A DNA stretch of 45,478 nucleotides, taken from assembly GCA_030149175.1 (NCBI GenBank), contig JASBSA010000024.1, positions 1 to 45,478 of the forward strand, written 5' to 3'. The notes beneath the pieces are model-generated. The model made no database searches. It saw only the letters and a program-made list of their open reading frames with translations, and was not told the DNA's origin. The position numbers and the translations under genes are program-made. Shown here one piece after another: positions 4,526 through 34,562 of this stretch (positions are counted from its first letter, which is position 1; each line of letters begins with the position of its first letter). Origin of the DNA: Winogradskyella sp. (lineage in GTDB: Bacteria > Bacteroidota > Bacteroidia > Flavobacteriales > Flavobacteriaceae).

Positions 4526-4579
4526 AATTAAAACAAAAAAAAGCATCCTTTTAAAAAGACGCTTTTTTTTGTTTTAATT
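4526..4579. terminator. Bidirectional terminator between glmS and the sulfotransferase gene
   Basis: A long inverted repeat: the left arm (AATTAAAAC, an A-run, then AGC, 4526-4544) pairs with the right arm (GC, a T-run, then GTTTTAATT, 4561-4579). Each strand reads a stem followed by a T-run. The right arm also encodes the C-terminal residues of the sulfotransferase, which stops at 4551. Confidence 0.85.
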
Positions 4580-5942
4580 GATCATAAACTCTTTGGGTTA
4601 CATCGATAAGTTCTTTATTACACCCTGAAGTATCAATAGTTTTATTATTATTAAATGGTTTTACGTTTGATAAATCAAAATCCATTTTCAACTCGTTTTG
4701 TAAATGAATAAGAACGTCTTTTGGATTGGACAGATAATCTTTATAGTCAATTAAAGTAATGGCCGAATCATCTAAAGTTAAAAGATATGAATAATAGTTT
4801 AGCCAAACTGACAACCAATAATCTAATGTGCCTTTATCATATTCAATTTCAACAGGCTTATTATCGAAACTAAAAACTTTTTGATTATGACCAAATTCAT
4901 GATGCCCTAACCAATCCATATAAGTTTCTATAAAATCATCATCGTGTTGAAAATCAGAGAATCTTAAGTGTTGATTTAATAAAGAATCTGCATGTTCTAC
5001 AGGATTACGAAATAAAAATATAGCTTTAAAATCCTTGTTTAAGGATCTTAACGAAGGATATCTCAAAATGAGATTATTATTTTTTGATAAATATAAATGT
5101 GAGTTGTCACTTCTAATTAAAGACTGATATGCCAAATACTTTTCATAAACCTCTTGAGTTATATCGTGCTTAGTTAAAATAGAGTCACCAATAAAACTAT
5201 CGTTTAGAAACACTTTGAAAAAATATTCCTCTAGGGCCTCAATAGTATTTAACCCAAACATCATTTTATCTCCATGCTTACGCTCCTTAAGCTGTGCGTT
5301 TTTAGGATTATACAGTTTTTTCCACAGATTGGGCGCTAAAAGAAGAGGCATATTAGAGTAATCTAAAGAACTAAATTTTCCTGCTTTAAATAATTGGTCT
5401 GTTAAGCTTGTTGTTCCAGCTCTTGCTAAACCAGATACGATAACAAAATTAGACTCCTCTTTAATCTTTTCTCCTTTCTTAAATTTCATATCAAACGAAA
5501 AAAGAAGTTTTGATAAGTTGTAGTTATTAAGAATTAGTCTATGAAAAAGCTTAGAGGCTTCTGAATAATTGTCGTCATTCTTTTTCTTCTTGAACAAGAA
5601 AAATGGAATAACACTTCCTACGGAAAGGCTTAGTATAAACCATAACGAACTAAAATCTAAGTTTTCAAAATTTGTTTTACTAAACAAGCTGTATAGATAA
5701 AGCGGAAGTAAAGTCGCACAAGCAATTATAATAAAAGCAATAATTGTTTTGAAGAGCGAGAAAAGAATTCGCTTCAACGCAACAATTAACCTCTTTTGTT
5801 TAATACTTTCATCTTCTTTAGAAAGTACTTCGTTGGTTAATGAAATAGACGACTCTATTAGCTCAAAAAATATTTTTTTTAGAGCTATTATAGATGCAGC
5901 CAGGGCAAAGCCTGCGACACCTGCTATAATAAAATACAGCAT
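4551..5942 (-). CDS. Membrane-anchored sulfotransferase (PAPS-type)
   Basis: 463 residues. The N-terminus has three predicted membrane segments (about residues 2-22, 63-87 and 98-117), with a charged stretch between the first two. The C-terminal domain is a P-loop sulfotransferase: FVIVSGLARAGTTSL (about 167-180) is the 5'-phosphosulfate loop, and FLFRNPVEHADSLL (about 309-322) is the 3'-phosphate site, with R312 and S320 in the expected places. It probably moves sulfate from PAPS to an unknown acceptor at the inner face of the membrane. The start codon shares a base with the stop codon of the 47-residue peptide gene (TAATG), which indicates translational coupling. It is the third gene of an operon with an arylsulfotransferase-like protein. 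The acceptor is unknown; a lipid, exopolysaccharide or small phenolic compound are all possible. Confidence 0.85.
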   Translation of the reverse strand: MLYFIIAGVAGFALAASIIALKKIFFELIESSISLTNEVLSKEDESIKQKRLIVALKRILFSLFKTIIAFIIIACATLLPLYLYSLFSKTNFENLDFSSLWFILSLSVGSVIPFFLFKKKKNDDNYSEASKLFHRLILNNYNLSKLLFSFDMKFKKGEKIKEESNFVIVSGLARAGTTSLTDQLFKAGKFSSLDYSNMPLLLAPNLWKKLYNPKNAQLKERKHGDKMMFGLNTIEALEEYFFKVFLNDSFIGDSILTKHDITQEVYEKYLAYQSLIRSDNSHLYLSKNNNLILRYPSLRSLNKDFKAIFLFRNPVEHADSLLNQHLRFSDFQHDDDFIETYMDWLGHHEFGHNQKVFSFDNKPVEIEYDKGTLDYWLSVWLNYYSYLLTLDDSAITLIDYKDYLSNPKDVLIHLQNELKMDFDLSNVKPFNNNKTIDTSGCNKELIDVTQRVYDQLKQKKASF

Positions 5943-6085
5943 TACCCCTTCTTAAATAAATTACGGAAAAATCGTTTGATAGGAATCCATAACACTACAC
6001 CAAACGAAAAAATAACAAGAAGGGCAATAAAAATAATGATTAGCAATGTTCCGAGTCCTAATCCAGGTCCAATATAATTAAGCAT
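5942..6085 (-). CDS. 47-residue membrane peptide with YIGPG motif
   Basis: A short reading frame opens with MLNYIGPGLGLGTLL, continues as one strongly hydrophobic helix (about residues 12-33) and ends in a basic tail, PIKRFFRNLFKKG. It fills the gap between two genes of the same strand almost exactly: 11 bases after the stop of the arylsulfotransferase-like gene, and its TAA overlaps the ATG of the sulfotransferase gene by one base. The composition and coupling make a real gene likely. By the positive-inside rule the C-terminus should face the cytoplasm. I infer a small partner or anchor for one of its neighbours; I do not recognise a named family with certainty. Confidence 0.75.
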   Translation of the reverse strand: MLNYIGPGLGLGTLLIIIFIALLVIFSFGVVLWIPIKRFFRNLFKKG

Positions 6086-6096
6086 AATAGTAGATT

Positions 6097-7401
6097 TTAA
6101 AAATTAATATCTGAATAAATGGTCGTCCAATTAGAAAGGTAATGATATCCTTCTATATCACTCTTTAATACTGTCTTGAGGACAACACCGTCTTCATTTA
6201 ACACCCATAAGATTCCCGATCCCTGTTCTTCTACAAACATATCTCCATTAGGTAGTATTTCATACAAGCCCTCTGCTCCTGTAAAAATTTCATTTTCAAT
6301 AAATTGATCTTCGTAAAGAGCTTTAAATGAATCCGTTTCAAAGTTATAAATAAGTACATTTGAATGCGTTATTTTTCGTTGAATAGTTCCATTACTTGGT
6401 TTAAATTCATTTTTGTTGAAATGTACATCCCATGCTGGTGAATTATTATTGAATACTGCTATTGTATTTTCAGACAAGACATCTACATCGTGTTGAAAAG
6501 TAAATGGCCCATCGATAACATTAACCACTTTACCTGTTGAAGGCCTATAATGCAATATTGTCGATAAATGTCTGAAGCTAAGAAACAAATCACCCCTATT
6601 AAAGTAATCTGAACTATCTATAACTACAGGCTGTACATCATTTAAATGGAATGGATCAGTAATGTGTGTGGCTTTGTTCAATAGTTCATCCAGCTTATTT
6701 TCTATAAAAATATCAGTTAGAGATTTACTATATAATGTCTTACCTGTATTGGCATCTACATTTAAAATAAGATCATCTCTATATTCAGTTTTTTTGCCAT
6801 CAACTGAAACCACCTTTGGGACAATTAAGCCATCTTCATGCTTTACACCAGGAATCCATATATTTCCTTTATGATCTAAATTCATTGCATGATGAAAAAT
6901 AAAATCCTTGTTAAACCATTTCACTTTTGAAGTTGAGTCTAATCTTAAAAGTCCTGGTTTCTCATTACAAGAGGCTATTAAATCTCTATCAGCCATTAAC
7001 TTAGTTGGGTATAATCTATCATTTTGTCCAACCTCATAATACTTAGACAAAAACTCAATAGGTAATTTCCATTTTTTTAGGATTTCATCAGTTTTAAAAT
7101 TCTTTAACTCAATATTGAATTGATCTCCGCTTCTGTAAGCATAAGAACCATATAAGTCATAACTTAGACTATTAATATCGCTTAAGTCCTCTTCTTTTGT
7201 TTTTAAATAATACTCTGGGGCACGGAAATAATGATTATACGCCATTTTCATATTAGATGGTATTTCAGAGAAAGCCCTAATTGGAGTTGTTAAAGGACCA
7301 GCAGCATTTTGACCAAGTGCTGCATTTCTAACAATACCACTCCATAGCATTAAAACAAAAACTCCAATAATAATCAAAGCCAATTTCCTTATTGTCTTCA
7401 T
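6097..7401 (-). CDS. Arylsulfotransferase (ASST)-like beta-propeller protein
   Basis: 434 residues with an N-terminal signal anchor (about residues 7-26), so the body is probably periplasmic. Several stretches match the arylsulfotransferase families: HHAMNLDHKGNIWIPG (170-185), DPFHLNDVQPV (249-259), DLFLSFRHLSTILHY (271-285), FQHDVDVLSENTIAVFNNN (302-320) and a final EILPNGDMFVEEQGSG repeat. The conserved histidines H171, H252 and H304 fit the propeller active-site region. Enzymes of this group move sulfate from one phenolic ester to another without PAPS. It is the first gene of an operon with a small membrane peptide and a PAPS-type sulfotransferase, which pairs the two unrelated chemistries of sulfate transfer. 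The substrate is unknown; a non-catalytic propeller cannot be excluded. Confidence 0.78.
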   Translation of the reverse strand: MKTIRKLALIIIGVFVLMLWSGIVRNAALGQNAAGPLTTPIRAFSEIPSNMKMAYNHYFRAPEYYLKTKEEDLSDINSLSYDLYGSYAYRSGDQFNIELKNFKTDEILKKWKLPIEFLSKYYEVGQNDRLYPTKLMADRDLIASCNEKPGLLRLDSTSKVKWFNKDFIFHHAMNLDHKGNIWIPGVKHEDGLIVPKVVSVDGKKTEYRDDLILNVDANTGKTLYSKSLTDIFIENKLDELLNKATHITDPFHLNDVQPVVIDSSDYFNRGDLFLSFRHLSTILHYRPSTGKVVNVIDGPFTFQHDVDVLSENTIAVFNNNSPAWDVHFNKNEFKPSNGTIQRKITHSNVLIYNFETDSFKALYEDQFIENEIFTGAEGLYEILPNGDMFVEEQGSGILWVLNEDGVVLKTVLKSDIEGYHYLSNWTTIYSDINF

Positions 7402-7711
7402 TTTATTTTGTTTTAGGTTAGTTTATAATATCCTTCAATAATAGTATTAAATCAATTTATGGCTTAAAATAATCCATATAACGCAATTTTATACGTTGTG
7501 TTAGCCACCAAAATACATAAACTCAATAAATTGTCCTGTAAATGAGAATGATATTCAATTTTTTAAATATTACTAAAATTGCCAATATTATAATTTTAGA
7601 GTGCTCAAATTTACAATAAGTGCTATGCATGCATAATTTTTTGAGAATTTCTTACCTAATTTTCATATATTTATTTAAATTGGCATCAAATAAATTAACT
7701 AATTCTCTAAC
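7402..7711. other. Divergent intergenic region, AT-rich
   Basis: About 310 bases separate the sulfotransferase operon (left) from the TonB receptor gene (right). I find no credible gene. A box TAATTTTA at 7591-7598 is one base away from the usual -7 consensus and could start rightward transcription, which would leave a leader of about 110 bases. I see no clear -7 box for the leftward operon and no strong hairpin or known riboswitch fold. Confidence 0.5.
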
Positions 7712-10516
7712 ATGAAGACAATCTTAAAGCTTTTTACATTGCTTTTTTGCGTGGCATCTTTTGCTCAAACCACAATAAAAGGTAAAATTACTGATGAAAC
7801 CGGGTTACCCTTACCTGGTGCAAATATTGTAGTTGTGGACACCACAATAGGTACTGTTTCGGATTTTGACGGAAACTACACCCTATCTGTAGATCAAAAT
7901 CCACCATTTTCAATTCGCGTAAGTTACACAGGCTTTGAAGCCCAAACTATTGAAATAACAAGTAGTGAACAGACCGTAGATGTTGTGCTAAAAGAAGGGA
8001 ACTCATTAGATGAAGTCGTAATTTCTGCTTCTAGAACACCAGAACGTATTTTCGAATCCCCTGTGACTGTTGAGCGTTTTGGATTAAAAGAAATTAAAAA
8101 CACAACATCTATAGACTTTTATGACGGTTTAGAAAATTTAAAAGGTGTAGACATAAATACCAACAGTTTAACTTTTAAATCTATCAACACGAGAGGTTTT
8201 GCAACTTTTGCCAACACTCGCTTCATGCAATTGGTAGACGGAATGGACAACTCGGCCCCAGCACTTAACTTCCCCTTGGGTAACTTGCTAGGGATGACAG
8301 AAACTGATGTGCAAAGTGTAGAATTACTACCAGGTGCAGCTTCTGCATTATATGGCGCCAATGCCTTCAATGGTATTTTATTTATGAGAAGTAAAAACCC
8401 TTTTGATCATCAAGGTATAAGCGGATACATTAAAAGAGGTATCACTTCTCAAGAAGCGGCAGGCGATAATGACTATACAGATTTAGGTATTAGAATGGCT
8501 TATAAGTTTAGTGAAAAATTTGCAGCCAAAGTTAATTTTGGTTATTTAAAAGGAACTGATTGGTTTGCCGTAAATGAAGAAGATAAACTTAATCGTGGAC
8601 TAACTAGAGCTAACATTGATTATGATGGAATTAACGTTTATGGTGATGAAGTTAGCACTAACATAAATGATGTTGCCCAGACTTTAGAAAGTTTAGGATT
8701 AGCTCCTTCTGGCGCCTCTGCACTTGTGCCATCGGTTAACGTAAGTAGAACTGGTTATAATGAAAGAGACTTGACCAATTATAATGCTGAAAGTATTAAG
8801 GCTGATTGGGGACTTTATTTCCGCCCTTGGGAAAATGATTTTGAAATTCAGTATGTTGGTAAAGTAGGCTCCGGTAACACTATTTATCAAGGAGCTAACA
8901 GATATAATATCAAAAACTTCTTCTTACAACAGCACAAATTAGAAATCAGAAATGACAACTTCTTTGTGAGAGGTTATGTTACTGAAGATAAAGCGGGTGA
9001 CTCTTACGATATGGTTTTCACAGGTATCAATATTAACAGAGCGTGGAAAGATGACCAAACTTGGTTTGGTGAATATGTAGGAACTTACATTGGAGCAACT
9101 TTGGGTGGAGCAACCGATACCCAGGCACATGCTGCTGCTAGAGCTCAAGCTGATACTGGTCGTTATTTACCTGGCACACCAGAATTTCAAGCTGCGTTTA
9201 ATAGAAGCATTAACGACCCTGACTTAACTACTGGTTCTAAGTTTCAAGATAATTCAAAAATTTATCACGCAGACGCTAATTACAATTTTGGTGATTTAGT
9301 AGATTTTGCTGAAATTCAAGTTGGTGGTTCTTACAGAAGATACCGTTTAAATTCCTTTGGAACAATATACACAGATAATGATGGGCCTATCAATTATTCT
9401 GAAGTCGGTATATACACACAATTACAAAGGTCTTTAGAGTTATCTGAAAGTGTAGAATTAAAACTTACAGGGTCTTTGAGGTATGATAAGTCTGAATTGT
9501 TTGATGGGTTCTTTTCTCCAAGATTATCCGCTGGTTTCACAATTAATCAAGACCATAATATTAGGGCTTCATTCCAAACAGGATTCAGAAACCCAACTAC
9601 TCAAGATTTATACATTGGTTTAGATGTTGGTAGAGCTATTTTAGTGGGTGGTGCACCAGATAATCCAGCAAGAGATGTTAGAAATTACGAATTAAGTGCT
9701 ACCGGTACTTCAATTACAGGGCAAACAAATATTGCCTTTGATGGCTCAGGAGCTTACAATAATTCTTTCGCTGCAAGTTCAGTATCTAATGGTTTTGCGC
9801 TTACTGGTAATCCAGCAGATTTAGAAATTGCCAACTCTGACTTGGTTAAGCCTGAGCAAGTAAGTTCTGTTGAACTTGGTTATCGTGGCAAGTTAGATGG
9901 CATAATAATTGACGCTTCTGTTTACTATAATCAATATAAAGATTTTTTAGCTAACGAAACCGTAATCGCACCGTTTTATGGTGATGTAGAATTAACACAG
10001 GCATTACCTAACGGTACACCTTTAGCAGTGGCAGCAATTGCTAATGGCGATTTTCAAGCATACCAAACCTATACTAACTCTGATGAAGATGTAAATTCTT
10101 ATGGCGCAGCAGTTCAAGTTTCAGCAAAAGTATTTAACGGATTCGACTTGAGCGCTAACTATACTTATGCAAAATTAGACTTTGATGTAAAACAAAATCC
10201 TGATTTTAGAACTTTCTTCAACACACCAGAGCACAAAGTAAAGGCCTCATTTGGTAAGACAGAACTGTTTAAAAACTTTGGCTTCAATGTATCTTGGAGA
10301 TGGAGTGATAACTATTTCTGGGAATCTTCGTTCGGTGATGGTGATGTACCATCTTTTAATGTTCTTGATGCGCAAATTAACTTTAAAGTACCTAGCTTAA
10401 AATCTACATTTAAAGCCGGTGCAACTAACTTGTTACAAGACGAATACTTTACAGCATTTGGTACAGGTTTCATAGGTTCTCAATACTACGTATCTTGGAC
10501 TATTAATAACTTATAA
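7712..10516 (+). CDS. TonB-dependent outer-membrane receptor with CarboxypepD_reg-like domain
   Basis: 934 residues. The signal peptide ends at about residue 19 (FCVASFAQ). Next come a carboxypeptidase-regulatory-like beta domain (about 20-100: TIKGKITDETGLPLPGANIVV, DFDGNYTL), a plug domain (about 105-230, with FKSINTRGF, LVDGMDNSA and LLPGAASALYGANAFNGIL) and a 22-strand barrel ending in the aromatic strand GSQYYVSWTINNL. It should import a nutrient using energy from TonB. The next gene is an SGNH lipoprotein 20 bases downstream, so the two probably work as a surface pair, broadly like SusC with a surface lipoprotein. The substrate cannot be read from sequence; the partner suggests an ester-containing or acylated ligand. 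Confidence 0.93.
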   Translation: MKTILKLFTLLFCVASFAQTTIKGKITDETGLPLPGANIVVVDTTIGTVSDFDGNYTLSVDQNPPFSIRVSYTGFEAQTIEITSSEQTVDVVLKEGNSLDEVVISASRTPERIFESPVTVERFGLKEIKNTTSIDFYDGLENLKGVDINTNSLTFKSINTRGFATFANTRFMQLVDGMDNSAPALNFPLGNLLGMTETDVQSVELLPGAASALYGANAFNGILFMRSKNPFDHQGISGYIKRGITSQEAAGDNDYTDLGIRMAYKFSEKFAAKVNFGYLKGTDWFAVNEEDKLNRGLTRANIDYDGINVYGDEVSTNINDVAQTLESLGLAPSGASALVPSVNVSRTGYNERDLTNYNAESIKADWGLYFRPWENDFEIQYVGKVGSGNTIYQGANRYNIKNFFLQQHKLEIRNDNFFVRGYVTEDKAGDSYDMVFTGININRAWKDDQTWFGEYVGTYIGATLGGATDTQAHAAARAQADTGRYLPGTPEFQAAFNRSINDPDLTTGSKFQDNSKIYHADANYNFGDLVDFAEIQVGGSYRRYRLNSFGTIYTDNDGPINYSEVGIYTQLQRSLELSESVELKLTGSLRYDKSELFDGFFSPRLSAGFTINQDHNIRASFQTGFRNPTTQDLYIGLDVGRAILVGGAPDNPARDVRNYELSATGTSITGQTNIAFDGSGAYNNSFAASSVSNGFALTGNPADLEIANSDLVKPEQVSSVELGYRGKLDGIIIDASVYYNQYKDFLANETVIAPFYGDVELTQALPNGTPLAVAAIANGDFQAYQTYTNSDEDVNSYGAAVQVSAKVFNGFDLSANYTYAKLDFDVKQNPDFRTFFNTPEHKVKASFGKTELFKNFGFNVSWRWSDNYFWESSFGDGDVPSFNVLDAQINFKVPSLKSTFKAGATNLLQDEYFTAFGTGFIGSQYYVSWTINNL

Positions 10517-12248: not shown

Positions 12249-13760
<1,512 letters not shown>

Positions 13761-13769
13761 ATTAGTTGG

Positions 13770-13826
13770 CAGTAATCAGTCTTCAGTCTTCATGGACTGC
13801 AAACTGTAAACTGCAGACTGCAAACT
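13770..13826. repeat. Heptad-phased inverted repeat between atpD and atpC
   Basis: CAGT occurs at 13770, 13777 and 13784 (with a decayed CATG at 13791), exactly every 7 bases. It is followed by ACTG at 13796, 13803, 13810 and 13817 (with ACT at 13824), again every 7 bases. Since ACTG is the reverse complement of CAGT, the two arrays form an imperfect hairpin. The element fills most of the 76-base gap between the two ATP synthase genes. Confidence 0.8.
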
Positions 13827-13836
13827 AAAAAAAAAT

Positions 13837-14130
13837 ATGTATTTAGAGATTGTATCACCAGAGGCTACTTTATTTAGTTCAGAAGTTGATTCTGTGGTAG
13901 TACCAGGTGTAAATGGTGAGTTTGAAATGTTATCTAATCACGCTCCTGTAGTTTCTATCTTAAGTGAAGGCACTATTAGAATCAAAACACACACACAAAG
14001 TCATTTAGTTTTTGATGAACTGCACGGAGATGTTATTCCTCATGCTGACGATAAGAAAGTGTTAACTGTTAAGATTAGCTCTGGTACTATAGAAATGAAA
14101 GATAATAAGCTGATCATTTTAGCCGATTAA
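13837..14130 (+). CDS. atpC: F0F1 ATP synthase subunit epsilon (short form)
   Basis: 97 residues. The N-terminal beta-sandwich that contacts the rotor is clear: MYLEIVSPEATLFSSEVDSVVVPGVNGEFEMLSNHAPVVS. The C-terminal helical hairpin that inhibits ATP hydrolysis in many bacteria is missing, since usual lengths are 130-140 residues. The frame ends cleanly at IILAD, with the terminator close behind, so this looks like the short form known in Bacteroidota and not a broken gene. It is probably co-transcribed with atpD across the repeat-filled gap. Confidence 0.95.
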   Translation: MYLEIVSPEATLFSSEVDSVVVPGVNGEFEMLSNHAPVVSILSEGTIRIKTHTQSHLVFDELHGDVIPHADDKKVLTVKISSGTIEMKDNKLIILAD

Positions 14131-14149
14131 GAAGAATATTAGATATAAT

Positions 14150-14184
14150 AAAAAGCGCTAAATTTTTAGATTTAGTGCTTTTTT
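14150..14184. terminator. Bidirectional terminator between atpC and umuD
   Basis: AAAAAGCGCTAAAT pairs with ATTTAGTGCTTTTT (one wobble) around a short loop. It has T-runs on both strands and lies between two convergent genes. Confidence 0.85.
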
Positions 14185-14186
14185 AT

Positions 14187-14630
14187 TTAATATACTTTTT
14201 TAATCACATTTGTAACGATTCCCCAAATCACAAAATCATTCTCTTCAGTAACTTTTATTGGAGGATAATCAGGATTTTCGGGTTGTAACCATACCTCACC
14301 TTTTTCTACCCTTAGACGTTTCACTGTAAATTCACCATCTAAAAAACAGACCGCTATTTTATTGTTTTTAGGTTCTAAACTACGATCTACAATTAACAAG
14401 TCGTTATCGTCAAGGCCTGCTCCTATCATAGATTGACCGCTAACACGTGCATAGAAAGTTGCTTCCTTGTTTTTAATCAGCTCCTCATCTAAAGACAAAC
14501 GTTGTTCTTTAAAATCGTCTGCAGGAGATGGAAAACCAGCAGAAATTCCTGTATCAAAGAAATTTGCTCCTGCATCTTCAATAGGTTCTGGAACGAAAAA
14601 GGTTAAATTATTAGACTTGTATGTTATCAT
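14187..14630 (-). CDS. umuD: UmuD-like self-cleaving protein of DNA polymerase V (S24 family)
   Basis: 147 residues. The LexA/UmuD peptidase fold is visible: a cleavage-type Ala31-Gly32 bond in SAGFPSPADD, the nucleophile Ser67 in VSGQSMIGAG and the general base Lys104 in EFTVKRL. Self-cleavage would produce the active accessory subunit for error-prone translesion synthesis. Its ATG overlaps the TGA of umuC by four bases (ATGA), so it is translated after umuC, which is the reverse of the E. coli umuDC order. Confidence 0.92.
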   Translation of the reverse strand: MITYKSNNLTFFVPEPIEDAGANFFDTGISAGFPSPADDFKEQRLSLDEELIKNKEATFYARVSGQSMIGAGLDDNDLLIVDRSLEPKNNKIAVCFLDGEFTVKRLRVEKGEVWLQPENPDYPPIKVTEENDFVIWGIVTNVIKKVY

Positions 14631-31383: not shown

Positions 31384-33819
31384 TTAAAAAGTATACTGAA
31401 GTGCTACTATTAGATTTCTGCCTGCAGCCGAAATACCAGAAGAATAAGGCCTGTAGCGTTGATCTGTTATGTTTTCTAAACTTGCTGTTAGTGTTAATTT
31501 ATCTTTCCACTGGTATTGGGTTCTGAAGTTTAAAGTATACCATGATGGTGCGTAAGGGTTACCATTTTCATCCTCGGCATACAGATAGTCTTTAGACAAC
31601 TCGGATGGTGCCAACTGATTGAACGACAGCTCACTATTGTAGACTAAAAAAGCATCAAAAAGTAATTTATCTTTTTTATATACAAGATGAGTTCTTCCAA
31701 AATTTGGTGCTACGTGCCTTACCGGAACTTCTACTCCATCATCATCTTCAGTTCCTCCAATAACGTTGTACTGAGAACTTAGTTGTAAGGCTTCAGAAAA
31801 ATTGACCTCTGCACCAACTTCAAAACCATAAATCCATGCTTTGGATGCATTTTGTATGGCTTGTACTGTACTTAATTCACCATCGTAAATAATTTCAGTT
31901 TCACCATTGATATCATAATCCCTTCGAATTAACGCATTGTCTAGAAAGGTATAATATGTAGCCATATCTAATATAACCTTATCTTCAAAATTTAACTTTA
32001 AGCCCAATTCTCCACCATAAGCATACTCTGGTCTTAAATTATTATTGGGTACTACAACCGCTCCAGGTTCTGAATCGAATACTTTTCCGATGTCATCGAT
32101 ATTTGGTGCTCTAAAGGCTGTAGACGCATTCAACTTCCACTGAATCATTGAGCTTGGTGACCAAGTAATACCTGCTGTACCTGTTAATGCTCCTGTATTA
32201 ATATTAGCTTCATTAAAAGGAAGATTTAAAAAGTTGTTGTTAGCCGTAAAATCTGCTTTAGCAATAACTTGGTTATATCTTAAGCCCGATTGAAATACAA
32301 ATTTAGAATTGGGCTTGTATTTTAAGCTTGTATAAGCTGCTAAAGATTGCCAAGTAGCGCCATCTGGATATCGCGTAACATTTGGAACTTTGGTATTAGT
32401 TTCTATGTTTTCTTCAAATCCTTCTGAACCCACTTTATTAAAAAGATATTCTAACCCATAAGACATGGTAGTTTTAGAACCCAATTTTTTCTCTAAATCT
32501 AGATTAAAAGATAACACATCCACTTTCTCCTCTCTTACCTCGCGAATAGCAGATTGAAAATCCCTGTCTTTTCTGCTTTCTTTAAAATTTTGAAAAGCCA
32601 CCGTAGCTTGTATTTTGTCATAGATGTTTGAACTGCTACTCGTCTTAGTAACCTGAAGATTACTCATAAGCCATTGTTGCGGACCGTACTCCCATTCTGC
32701 AGATCTTAAAGTTTCTCCTCTTGGCCTGACCAATCTATCATATCTTGGATAATCTGATGTTGTTGTGAAAAACAAACCTAAGTCAAACTTAAGATTATCT
32801 CTTGGCTCGTACCTTACTTTTTGCATAAGGTTTACTTGATTATACCCTGTTGGCTTTTGTACCTCTGGATTGTTGTTAGCTACGATAACATCTTCTCCGT
32901 TTTGCCTAATAACATACTCTGGCCTTAAATACGCATCTGGTCCATTACTGCCCATTCTTAAGTCATCAAAATCTGTATAGCTAAGGTTGGTTAAAAATGC
33001 CCATTTTTTGTAACCGAGATTAAAATCTAAGTGTGTTGTGTTTTCGTTGTTGGCGCTGGCATAACGCATCAATGCACTACCACTGATTATAGATTCTTCT
33101 TTGTAAGACAACTGTGGCTTTTTTGTATAAAAACTCATTACTCCTCCTATTGCATCACTACCATAAACCACAGATCCTGCTCCTAAAGTTACTTCTGTAT
33201 TCTGGATAGACAAAGGGTCTATTGAGATAACATTTTGCAAATTACCACCTCTAAAAATAGCGTTATTCATACGTACGCCATCTACAGAAATAAGTAATCT
33301 ATTGGTAGAAAAACCACGAATCATTGGGCTACCTCCACCCATTTGACTTTTTTGAATAAAAACGTTTCCTGTATTATCTAATAAATCTGCACTAGTCTGT
33401 GGATTAGCTAAAGCTATTTCTTTAGCATTTATGGCAACAATAGATTGCGGAATATCTCTTTTACTTTGCTCAAATTTAGAAACCGATATTACGATCTGTT
33501 TAAGACCTTCAACTTTTGGTTTTAAGTATACGATGTAATTATTTTGAGAAATTTCAACCTTTCTTATCTGTAATTTCTCATATAACAGATTCTGAAAATA
33601 GATGATTTCTCTATCATTGAACTTATCCAACACAGCATTACCATCAAAGTCTGTAACTTCATATTTTGTTTTTTTTAAATTATAAAGTGAAACTCCAGAA
33701 ATTGGTTGACTTGTTCCCTCTTCTAAAACCGTTATAGTTTGGGCAAATGTGCTTTGGAAAAATAAGCACAAAAGGATACTAAAAATGATATTACATTTTA
33801 GTTTTATATGCATCTTCAT
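31384..33819 (-). CDS. TonB-dependent receptor, haemoglobin/transferrin-type family
   Basis: 811 residues from the ATG at 33819; an earlier TTG at 33846 would overlap the recO stop but gives a poor signal peptide. Export signal MKMHIKLKCNIIFSILLC, ending near FQSTFAQ. A short beta domain (about 25-100) precedes the plug (about 110-230), which has the family signature GGGSPMIRGFSTNRLLISVD and VRMNNAIFRGGNLQNVISID, then VVYGSDAIGGVM. The barrel ends with AGRNLIVALQYTF. This family usually takes up iron from haem proteins or siderophores; the ligand here is not proved. It is the third gene of the run porZ, recO, receptor. Confidence 0.9.
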   Translation of the reverse strand: MKMHIKLKCNIIFSILLCLFFQSTFAQTITVLEEGTSQPISGVSLYNLKKTKYEVTDFDGNAVLDKFNDREIIYFQNLLYEKLQIRKVEISQNNYIVYLKPKVEGLKQIVISVSKFEQSKRDIPQSIVAINAKEIALANPQTSADLLDNTGNVFIQKSQMGGGSPMIRGFSTNRLLISVDGVRMNNAIFRGGNLQNVISIDPLSIQNTEVTLGAGSVVYGSDAIGGVMSFYTKKPQLSYKEESIISGSALMRYASANNENTTHLDFNLGYKKWAFLTNLSYTDFDDLRMGSNGPDAYLRPEYVIRQNGEDVIVANNNPEVQKPTGYNQVNLMQKVRYEPRDNLKFDLGLFFTTTSDYPRYDRLVRPRGETLRSAEWEYGPQQWLMSNLQVTKTSSSSNIYDKIQATVAFQNFKESRKDRDFQSAIREVREEKVDVLSFNLDLEKKLGSKTTMSYGLEYLFNKVGSEGFEENIETNTKVPNVTRYPDGATWQSLAAYTSLKYKPNSKFVFQSGLRYNQVIAKADFTANNNFLNLPFNEANINTGALTGTAGITWSPSSMIQWKLNASTAFRAPNIDDIGKVFDSEPGAVVVPNNNLRPEYAYGGELGLKLNFEDKVILDMATYYTFLDNALIRRDYDINGETEIIYDGELSTVQAIQNASKAWIYGFEVGAEVNFSEALQLSSQYNVIGGTEDDDGVEVPVRHVAPNFGRTHLVYKKDKLLFDAFLVYNSELSFNQLAPSELSKDYLYAEDENGNPYAPSWYTLNFRTQYQWKDKLTLTASLENITDQRYRPYSSGISAAGRNLIVALQYTF

Positions 33820-33842
33820 TAAATCTTTTCGTAAAAATTGGC

Positions 33843-34562
33843 TCAATGAAATACTTCATTCAGCACTTGCAATGATTTTGGTTTCTTAAATCCGTCCAAA
33901 TGTAACTCAAAATAATGCAATAACACGTTTAAAAACTCTCGCCTTTGTTTTGCATTGATTTTAATACTTTGTAAGGCATCAAAATTTATGCCCAATAGCT
34001 GTTTTAAGAGTGTTAAATTTTCACCTGAAATGGAATAAATACCATAGTTAAAGGATTCGAATATTCCAGATTCTAAATTAAAATACGGAAACTCTAGGTT
34101 TTTATTTTCGGGTTGAAAGCCTAGGTAACGTGTCAATTTTAACAAAAATAAGAGATGAAAATTTGAGTACTGCTCTGAGTTATCCAAATATTGTAATGCA
34201 ATTTCTAGATAATTAAAAAGTGATTCATTCTTCTCCTCTTCCTTTAACGCATTTGAAAGAATTTCTGAAAGAAATAATACTATAGAACTTTTATAGATAT
34301 TGGAATGTACACTACGATATATGTAGCTAAACTTTACATCATTAATTCCTTGAAGCGACCTATTGGTTTTAAAAACCTCTTCAAACTGTAATTGTGATAA
34401 CGCTTGGTAATAGATGGTTTTACTACTACCCTTTTTGGATTTTAAAACACCTCTTAAAATATAGCTAACAACACCACGCTCTTTTGTGTAACACTTTACG
34501 ATAAGATCATTATCTCTATACTTTAATTTTGAAAGAACAATACCTTGGTTTTTTGTAAGCAT
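33843..34562 (-). CDS. recO: DNA repair protein RecO
   Basis: 239 residues. The N-terminal OB-fold reads TKNQGIVLSKLKYRDNDLIVKCYTKERGVVSYILRGV, followed by the helical domain of RecO. RecO helps RecA load at gaps in DNA, together with RecR and RecF. The zinc-binding cysteines of some RecO proteins are not seen, as in other Bacteroidota forms. It starts one base after the porZ stop, so translation is probably coupled. Confidence 0.95.
   Translation of the reverse strand: MLTKNQGIVLSKLKYRDNDLIVKCYTKERGVVSYILRGVLKSKKGSSKTIYYQALSQLQFEEVFKTNRSLQGINDVKFSYIYRSVHSNIYKSSIVLFLSEILSNALKEEEKNESLFNYLEIALQYLDNSEQYSNFHLLFLLKLTRYLGFQPENKNLEFPYFNLESGIFESFNYGIYSISGENLTLLKQLLGINFDALQSIKINAKQRREFLNVLLHYFELHLDGFKKPKSLQVLNEVFH

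Follow-up and report, generated by a model that had tools for sequence, protein, structure and literature searches.

Why a bacterium should encode a sulfotransferase that depends on 3′-phosphoadenosine-5′-phosphosulfate (PAPS) directly beside a relative of the PAPS-independent aryl-sulfate sulfotransferases (ASSTs), with a tiny membrane peptide between them, is the question raised by a three-gene locus of Winogradskyella sp. (Bacteroidota; Flavobacteriaceae). The locus lies on contig JASBSA010000024.1 of assembly GCA_030149175.1, analysed over positions 1 to 45,478 (the window, contig C15 of a source genome that is 2.5 Mb long and 75% complete). All three genes are on the minus strand, and they encode, in order of transcription, an ASST-like propeller of 434 amino acids (6097-7401), a membrane peptide of 47 residues (5942-6085) and a PAPS-type sulfotransferase (ST) of 463 amino acids (4551-5942). 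The answer proposed here is that they very probably form a module for envelope sulfation in which the parts work together and, more tentatively, that the module may be a sulfuryl relay across the inner membrane, with presumed activities, carrier and acceptor.

The set and its tight spacing had been noticed in a sequence-only reading of the window, and open reading frame (ORF) calls bear both out: 11 bases (6086-6096) separate the ASST gene from the peptide gene, and the stop codon TAA of the peptide gene overlaps the start codon ATG of the ST gene by one base (TAATG). From this spacing and from the linkage described below, joint production of all three genes is likely, although the coupling that had been claimed for them is broken for the ASST in one genome (G677; genomes and loci are designated by our own G and L numbers).

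Linkage and distribution of the three genes

Linkage was assessed in 31 ST-bearing records, comprising 23 Bacteroidota genomes and 8 plasmids, with L008-L010 counted together with G198, G161 and G213 and not separately. All three genes lie within 3 kb in 26 of these records, among Bacteroidota and alphaproteobacterial plasmids and thus in two phyla, and the ASST and the peptide are each found within 3 kb of ST in 27; the trio extends beyond the one strain from which it was first described, and the peptide has conserved relatives. The exceptions are G677, SC52, G357, G410 and Stanieria. Tateyamaria and Paracoccus have the order peptide-ST-ASST; all other complete sets have ASST-peptide-ST. Chance adjacency of the trio was considered and is ruled out by co-occurrence and linkage across genomes. 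When the distances between ASST proteins were compared with those between ST proteins at 26 loci (a set that omits G191, G677, G357, G410 and Stanieria and also serves for the invariant residues given below), the correlation was 0.963, and 0.816 at 16 diverse loci, with 0 of 2000 permutations as high and species descent uncontrolled.

Within the genus, the trio is all-or-none for strong matches. ST was found in 11 of 68 genomes, the peptide (E<1e-15) in the same 11 of 68, and the ASST (E<1e-100) in 10 of 67, all of them ST holders; the eleventh holder, G208, was outside the ASST draw of 67, and its ASST is in L017. Only weak matches were obtained with the peptide profile in seven other genomes (E 0.003 to 0.008) and with the ASST profile in 29.

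The family and phylum draws are samples. ST was found in 3 of 149 genomes of the family with a single-protein query and in 8 of 397 with a profile, and in 7 of 390 genomes of the phylum, where a narrow peptide profile matched 5 of 395 (two strongly) and the ASST 13 of 395 (seven below E 1e-15). Ten weak ASST matches in six genomes of the phylum (E 6.8e-06 to 4.1e-04), short parts of mostly much longer frames, were excluded, and so were the 314-codon frame of G554, a broken second ASST of G404 and a far-off ASST of G357 as ASST loci with no ST in their stretch. The strong-ASST and ST sets of the phylum share G000, G357, G404, G408, G536 and G581; they differ at G410, which has an ST remnant, and at G554, which has a shortened ASST. 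Plasmids yielded ST in 8 records, seven alphaproteobacterial and one cyanobacterial. Among viral carriers, 310 stretches fit a pattern and none was a relative.

Some copies are damaged. The ST frame of G191 is interrupted, and decayed modules are found in G357 (L090, 6692-8439, minus strand), where ST adjoins an apparent N-terminal fragment of the ASST, and in G410 (L091, 3206-3463, plus strand), where an ST remnant of 85 residues, read from the sequence, lies about 1.5 kb from a gene resembling adenosine-5′-phosphosulfate (APS) kinase.

The small membrane peptide

The peptide begins MLNYIGPG and consists of an N-terminal Y-x-GPG motif, one hydrophobic segment (residues 14-32 in a hydropathy scan) and a basic C-terminus; no Pfam or NCBIfam family was found for the window peptide, and none above cut-off for three scanned homologues. 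It is a genuine gene, strongly constrained by purifying selection: within the genus the protein has hardly changed, whereas its silent sites have diverged widely. Compared with the window, the proportions of synonymous (pS) and nonsynonymous (pN) differences are 0.78 and 0.033 in L009 and 0.62 and 0.009 in L010, and 3 of 16 comparisons show no amino-acid change at all despite pS of 0.26 to 0.29 (three of the 16, those for L008, L009 and L010, apparently duplicate loci L011, L015 and L014). Constraint persists between genera, with pN/pS of 0.17 to 0.25 against G038, G707 and G826. A spurious ORF was considered and is ruled out by these values and by the presence of annotated small genes at the corresponding place on plasmids.

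Nine aligned peptides are invariant at Y4, G6, P7, G8, G10, W33, P35, K37 and R38, and the wider set varies more, with YGGPG in G408, G536 and G404 and WPIRR in Paroceanicella. Because the scanned members were gathered by a pattern that needs an aromatic-x-GPG core, the GPG is to some extent conserved by construction, but the preference for Tyr above Phe or Trp owes nothing to the pattern. Several of the plasmid members first came to light as annotated genes at the expected position. In all 12 of the peptide forms whose N-terminus is longer and signal-like (judged by eye), A-x-A immediately precedes the tyrosine, and the remaining 16 listed forms have the tyrosine at position 4, behind a methionine.

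An orphan peptide with the motif YMGPG is found in Sphingomonas daechungensis (L057, NZ_CP060781.1, 7995-8204, plus strand), where the annotated neighbours include neither ST nor ASST.

The sulfotransferase and its anchor

The third gene had been described as a PAPS-type enzyme with three membrane segments, and this description holds. The Pfam model PF13469 (Sulfotransfer_3) matches the window protein at E 5.9e-05 and 23.9 bits, below the cut-off of 27, which four scanned homologues pass (42.3 bits in L050, 53.3 in L051, 60.4 in L027 and 46.9 in L007). A simple hydropathy scan places the three hydrophobic segments at residues 1-19, 59-77 and 99-117. Invariant over the 26 loci are R174, G176, T178, Y195, P199, P204, W207, R221, H223, D225, E235, E239, Y284, K287, N289, R294, R312, P314, S320, H347, E349, F350, G351, W376, W380 and Y384, which include the R312/S320 pair and every named position of the P-loop motif R174-x-G-T-T but its first threonine (T177, with one exception); we take the P-loop residues and R312/S320 to be contacts for PAPS. 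The best PDB similarity of the ST profile is to 5wrj (E 3.4e-05), with the uncharacterised protein 2zq5 level at 3.5e-05. With the protein-tyrosine sulfotransferases TPST1/2 the ST shares the R-x-GTT P-loop motif and a weak profile similarity; unlike them it has a three-segment membrane anchor, and its sequence is very distant.

The anchor seems to be an independent part, since it is encoded as a separate gene, recognised by the ST profile, in G104, G735, G677 and SC52. A small membrane-like gene at the anchor position is also present on plasmids of Novosphingobium, Rhodobacter, Paroceanicella and Sagittula, where the match is one of position and look only.

The ASST-like propeller

The assignment of the first gene to an ASST-like propeller is upheld by PF14269 (Arylsulfotran_2), which matches the protein at E 2.2e-36 and 126.2 bits against a cut-off of 27. 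The closest named relatives belong to a Winogradskyella metagenome-assembled genome (92%), W. flava (80%) and W. vincentii (79%). A simple hydropathy scan finds a single hydrophobic segment, N-terminal, at residues 6-24. The columns invariant over the 26 loci are W162, H170, H171, G220, D249, H252, N254, G270, S275, R277, P287, Q303, H304 and N319.

The propeller could in principle be non-catalytic and serve the ST in binding or sensing. The window protein searched alone has no PDB match, and the only natural PDB link of its profile, to 9kf4/9kf6, is weak because de novo designed proteins score equally in the same search; no path to the E. coli structure was found via other annotated ASSTs, and a search of the open-licence literature on 9kf4/9kf6 found nothing related. 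A non-catalytic role is nevertheless very improbable, as the invariant residues include an active-site-type pattern of His, His-x-Asn, Arg and His (H170/H171, H252/N254, R277, H304), the counterparts of which align in a profile alignment (probability 97.5) to a Cetobacterium protein annotated as aryl-sulfate sulfotransferase.

A second ASST of the same genome, of the PF05935 type (E 1.2e-13) and unrelated in appearance, is encoded at 1450-2712 on the plus strand of L001 (G000:C39:18518-22240), a stretch of 3.7 kb in which no ST or peptide accompanies it.

Genomic neighbourhood

Genes for PAPS synthesis, which the sequence-only reading had suggested looking for nearby, adjoin the module in three other genera and are found elsewhere in the source genome. 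The module comes directly after cysQ, DUF2061, cysC, cysD and cysN in G104, G735 and G677 (checked by profile for all five in G104, for all but DUF2061 in G677 and for cysC and cysN in G735, and otherwise by matching sequence). Other genes near the module encode, in G104, a nucleotide-sugar dehydrogenase, with a match above cut-off, and a protein resembling epimerases, with matches below the model cut-offs, and, in G677, a GDP-mannose 4,6-dehydratase and a polysaccharide-synthesis protein. The trio of G581 has cysC after it, and genes of epimerase-like and sugar-kinase-like type lie in the same stretch. The source genome has CysD, CysC and CysQ on another contig, beside sugar-nucleotide genes; CysN was not seen in the inspected stretch of that contig.

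These neighbours bear on the nature of the product. If the ST made a sulfated lipid or small molecule, with the ASST removing or redistributing aromatic sulfate outside for signalling or detoxification, then no glycan would be involved, and several plasmid loci (e.g. Novosphingobium, Rhodobacter, Paroceanicella) indeed have no polysaccharide genes among their annotated neighbours; characterised ASSTs, moreover, are mostly known for phenol acceptors according to PMC13426309. This explanation is improbable in view of the cys and sugar-nucleotide genes that adjoin the module in four Bacteroidota lineages, and of the genes for glycosyltransferases and epimerases in its vicinity in Tateyamaria, Sagittula and SC52.

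The SC52 record is a 60 kb plasmid of Rhodobacteraceae with polysaccharide genes (L056, CP049034.1). It encodes a pair of ASST-like proteins that carry a hypothetical annotation, together with further sulfotransferases and a fusion of ATP sulfurylase with APS kinase; the features noted lie at 7011-8417 (minus strand), 12834-14249 (minus strand) and 32241-33953 (plus strand). The ASST of SC52 is annotated as hypothetical yet matches PF14269 at 1e-12. A DUF2061 membrane protein is encoded between cysQ and cysC in four flavobacterial loci (L007, L065, L066 and L083), the source genome included; the Pfam match was checked in L007, and L065, L066 and L083 have matching sequence.

In the window, a Pfam scan of the neighbours identified the genes flanking the operon as an SIS/GATase (glmS-like) gene and a TonB-dependent receptor gene, and the flanks look alike in G038, G707 and G826. 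A terminator-like hairpin on the minus strand (4529-4576) overlaps the end of the ST gene, a pattern scan finding 3 overlapping forms where shuffled sequences gave an expectation of 1.1 (standard deviation 1.1). Promoter-like sites showed no excess over chance (16 against 19.3 expected).

A possible sulfuryl relay

The relay that we tentatively propose, as the likeliest of the explanations considered, would run in three steps. The cytosol-facing ST domain, held by its three-segment anchor, would move sulfate from PAPS to a membrane-held aromatic, phenol-like carrier, as its motifs and predicted topology suggest; the sulfated carrier would cross to the outer face, a passage for which the anchor and the YxGPG peptide are the putative scaffold or conduit; and an active-site histidine of the ASST would, by the chemistry of its family, accept the sulfuryl group and pass it to an exported polysaccharide or glycolipid. 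The pairing of two chemistries, one using cytosolic PAPS and the other apparently acting outside without it, would then make sense, because the first would charge an aromatic carrier and the second would discharge it onto a surface molecule. A membrane quinol or a phenolic lipid is a candidate for the carrier, sulfated menaquinone in mycobacteria being a precedent.

Hydropathy and flanking charges suggest that the ASST is outside on its N-terminal anchor, that the ST domain is inside the cell and that the peptide is oriented N-out, C-in, and the predicted sides of the two enzymes are compatible with a relay. Structure prediction from four sequences gave a mean predicted local distance difference test (pLDDT) of 37.9 and 43.4. 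The idea of a relay had been raised in the sequence-only reading; what stands of it is the fit to the predicted membrane sides and the precedent of Cpz8 and Cpz4 discussed below, whereas the carrier and its handover to the ASST are parts that we infer.

A bolder candidate for the carrier is the peptide's own tyrosine, which would be sulfated and then serve as the aryl-sulfate donor for the ASST, so that the carrier used to build sulfated surface molecules would be ribosomally made and membrane-held. This is suggested by the position of the tyrosine, which would be the first residue after signal removal in all 12 signal-like forms, and by the weak similarity of the ST to protein-tyrosine sulfotransferases, and seems a long shot: with the ST domain predicted inside and the tyrosine outside, either the peptide would have to be loaded before insertion or the predicted sides would have to be wrong. 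In a milder form of the proposal, the tyrosine may only dock in the pocket of the ASST.

Several observations weigh against the relay. The topology is a matter of hydropathy and charge counts only. In G677 the locus cys-peptide-anchor-ST (L065, 8356-8566) is intact but without an ASST, which stands alone elsewhere in the genome (L082, 7897-9222, plus strand), so that linkage of the ASST is not absolute; in SC52 the peptide is about 19 kb off; and neither ASST nor peptide was found in the stretch containing the Stanieria ST (31% identity). On plasmids the ASST query matches 38 records, of which only 6 have an ST match and 32 do not, and the tie between the three genes is therefore a property of one ASST subgroup and not of the whole family. 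APS kinase is present in 56 of 68 genomes of the genus, in 11 of 11 ST holders and 45 of 57 others (chance about 0.1, by hand); as it is so common, PAPS supply does not discriminate, and CysC was dropped as a genus marker for the module. Among the loci looked at, the module has no recurrent neighbour that would make a carrier.

The lack of a recurrent carrier gene in these loci would suit two independent sulfations of one surface product, in which the ST would sulfate a lipid-linked oligosaccharide inside from PAPS, the ASST would add or move sulfates outside with other aryl sulfates, no carrier would be passed and the peptide would stabilise the ST anchor. The sugar-nucleotide and polysaccharide genes in the loci of relatives favour this explanation too, as does G677 in keeping peptide, anchor and ST together with the ASST elsewhere. 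We regard it as rather unlikely, though worth serious attention, because strong matches to the ASST and ST in the genus occur either together or not at all, and because the retention of the ASST elsewhere in G677 suggests mutual need.

Relation to known systems

A precedent for the relay is caprazamycin biosynthesis in Streptomyces, in which a triketide pyrone is sulfated by Cpz8, an enzyme that depends on PAPS, and the sulfate is handed on to a sugar by Cpz4, which is independent of it (PMC6731281, PMC13426309). Cpz4 and LipB are described as sulfating sugar hydroxyls (PMC13426309, PMC11576661), and Cpz4 is said to favour the sugar hydroxyl of glycosides (PMC13426309). Common to Cpz8/Cpz4 and the present module is a PAPS-dependent ST together with a PAPS-independent ASST-type enzyme in one pathway; unlike Cpz8/Cpz4, the module has a membrane-anchored ST, a membrane segment in the ASST, a conserved peptide and ties to cys and sugar-nucleotide genes. 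No type III polyketide synthase was found among the scanned neighbours in the window or those annotated on plasmids, a search that did not extend to the rest of the genome.

EcAST of uropathogenic E. coli belongs to the same broad ASST superfamily by Pfam naming, and the residues reported for it in PMC13426309 (His252, His356, Asn358, Arg374 and His436) resemble the invariant H, H-x-N, R and H found here, a likeness of motif pattern and not of an alignment to EcAST. Unlike EcAST with its DsbL/DsbI operon, the propeller is of the PF14269 and not the PF05935 type and is accompanied by a PAPS-type ST and a peptide; no Dsb pair was found in the operon, which consists of ASST, peptide and ST only, or among five neighbours scanned with Pfam.

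A literature search of open-licence papers found no description of a set of ASST, YxGPG peptide and anchored ST. The principle of two-step sulfation is known from caprazamycin and both enzymes are of known families; the membrane form with a peptide appears, within that literature, to be new, and the peptide represents an undescribed family of small membrane proteins, the conservation of which makes testing easier. For most ASSTs, natural acceptors and cell roles are unknown, as stated in PMC13426309, and the conserved pairing of an ASST with its own PAPS-dependent ST suggests both a donor supply and a likely class of product. If true, the relay would explain how exported molecules are sulfated outside the cytoplasm, where PAPS is not expected.

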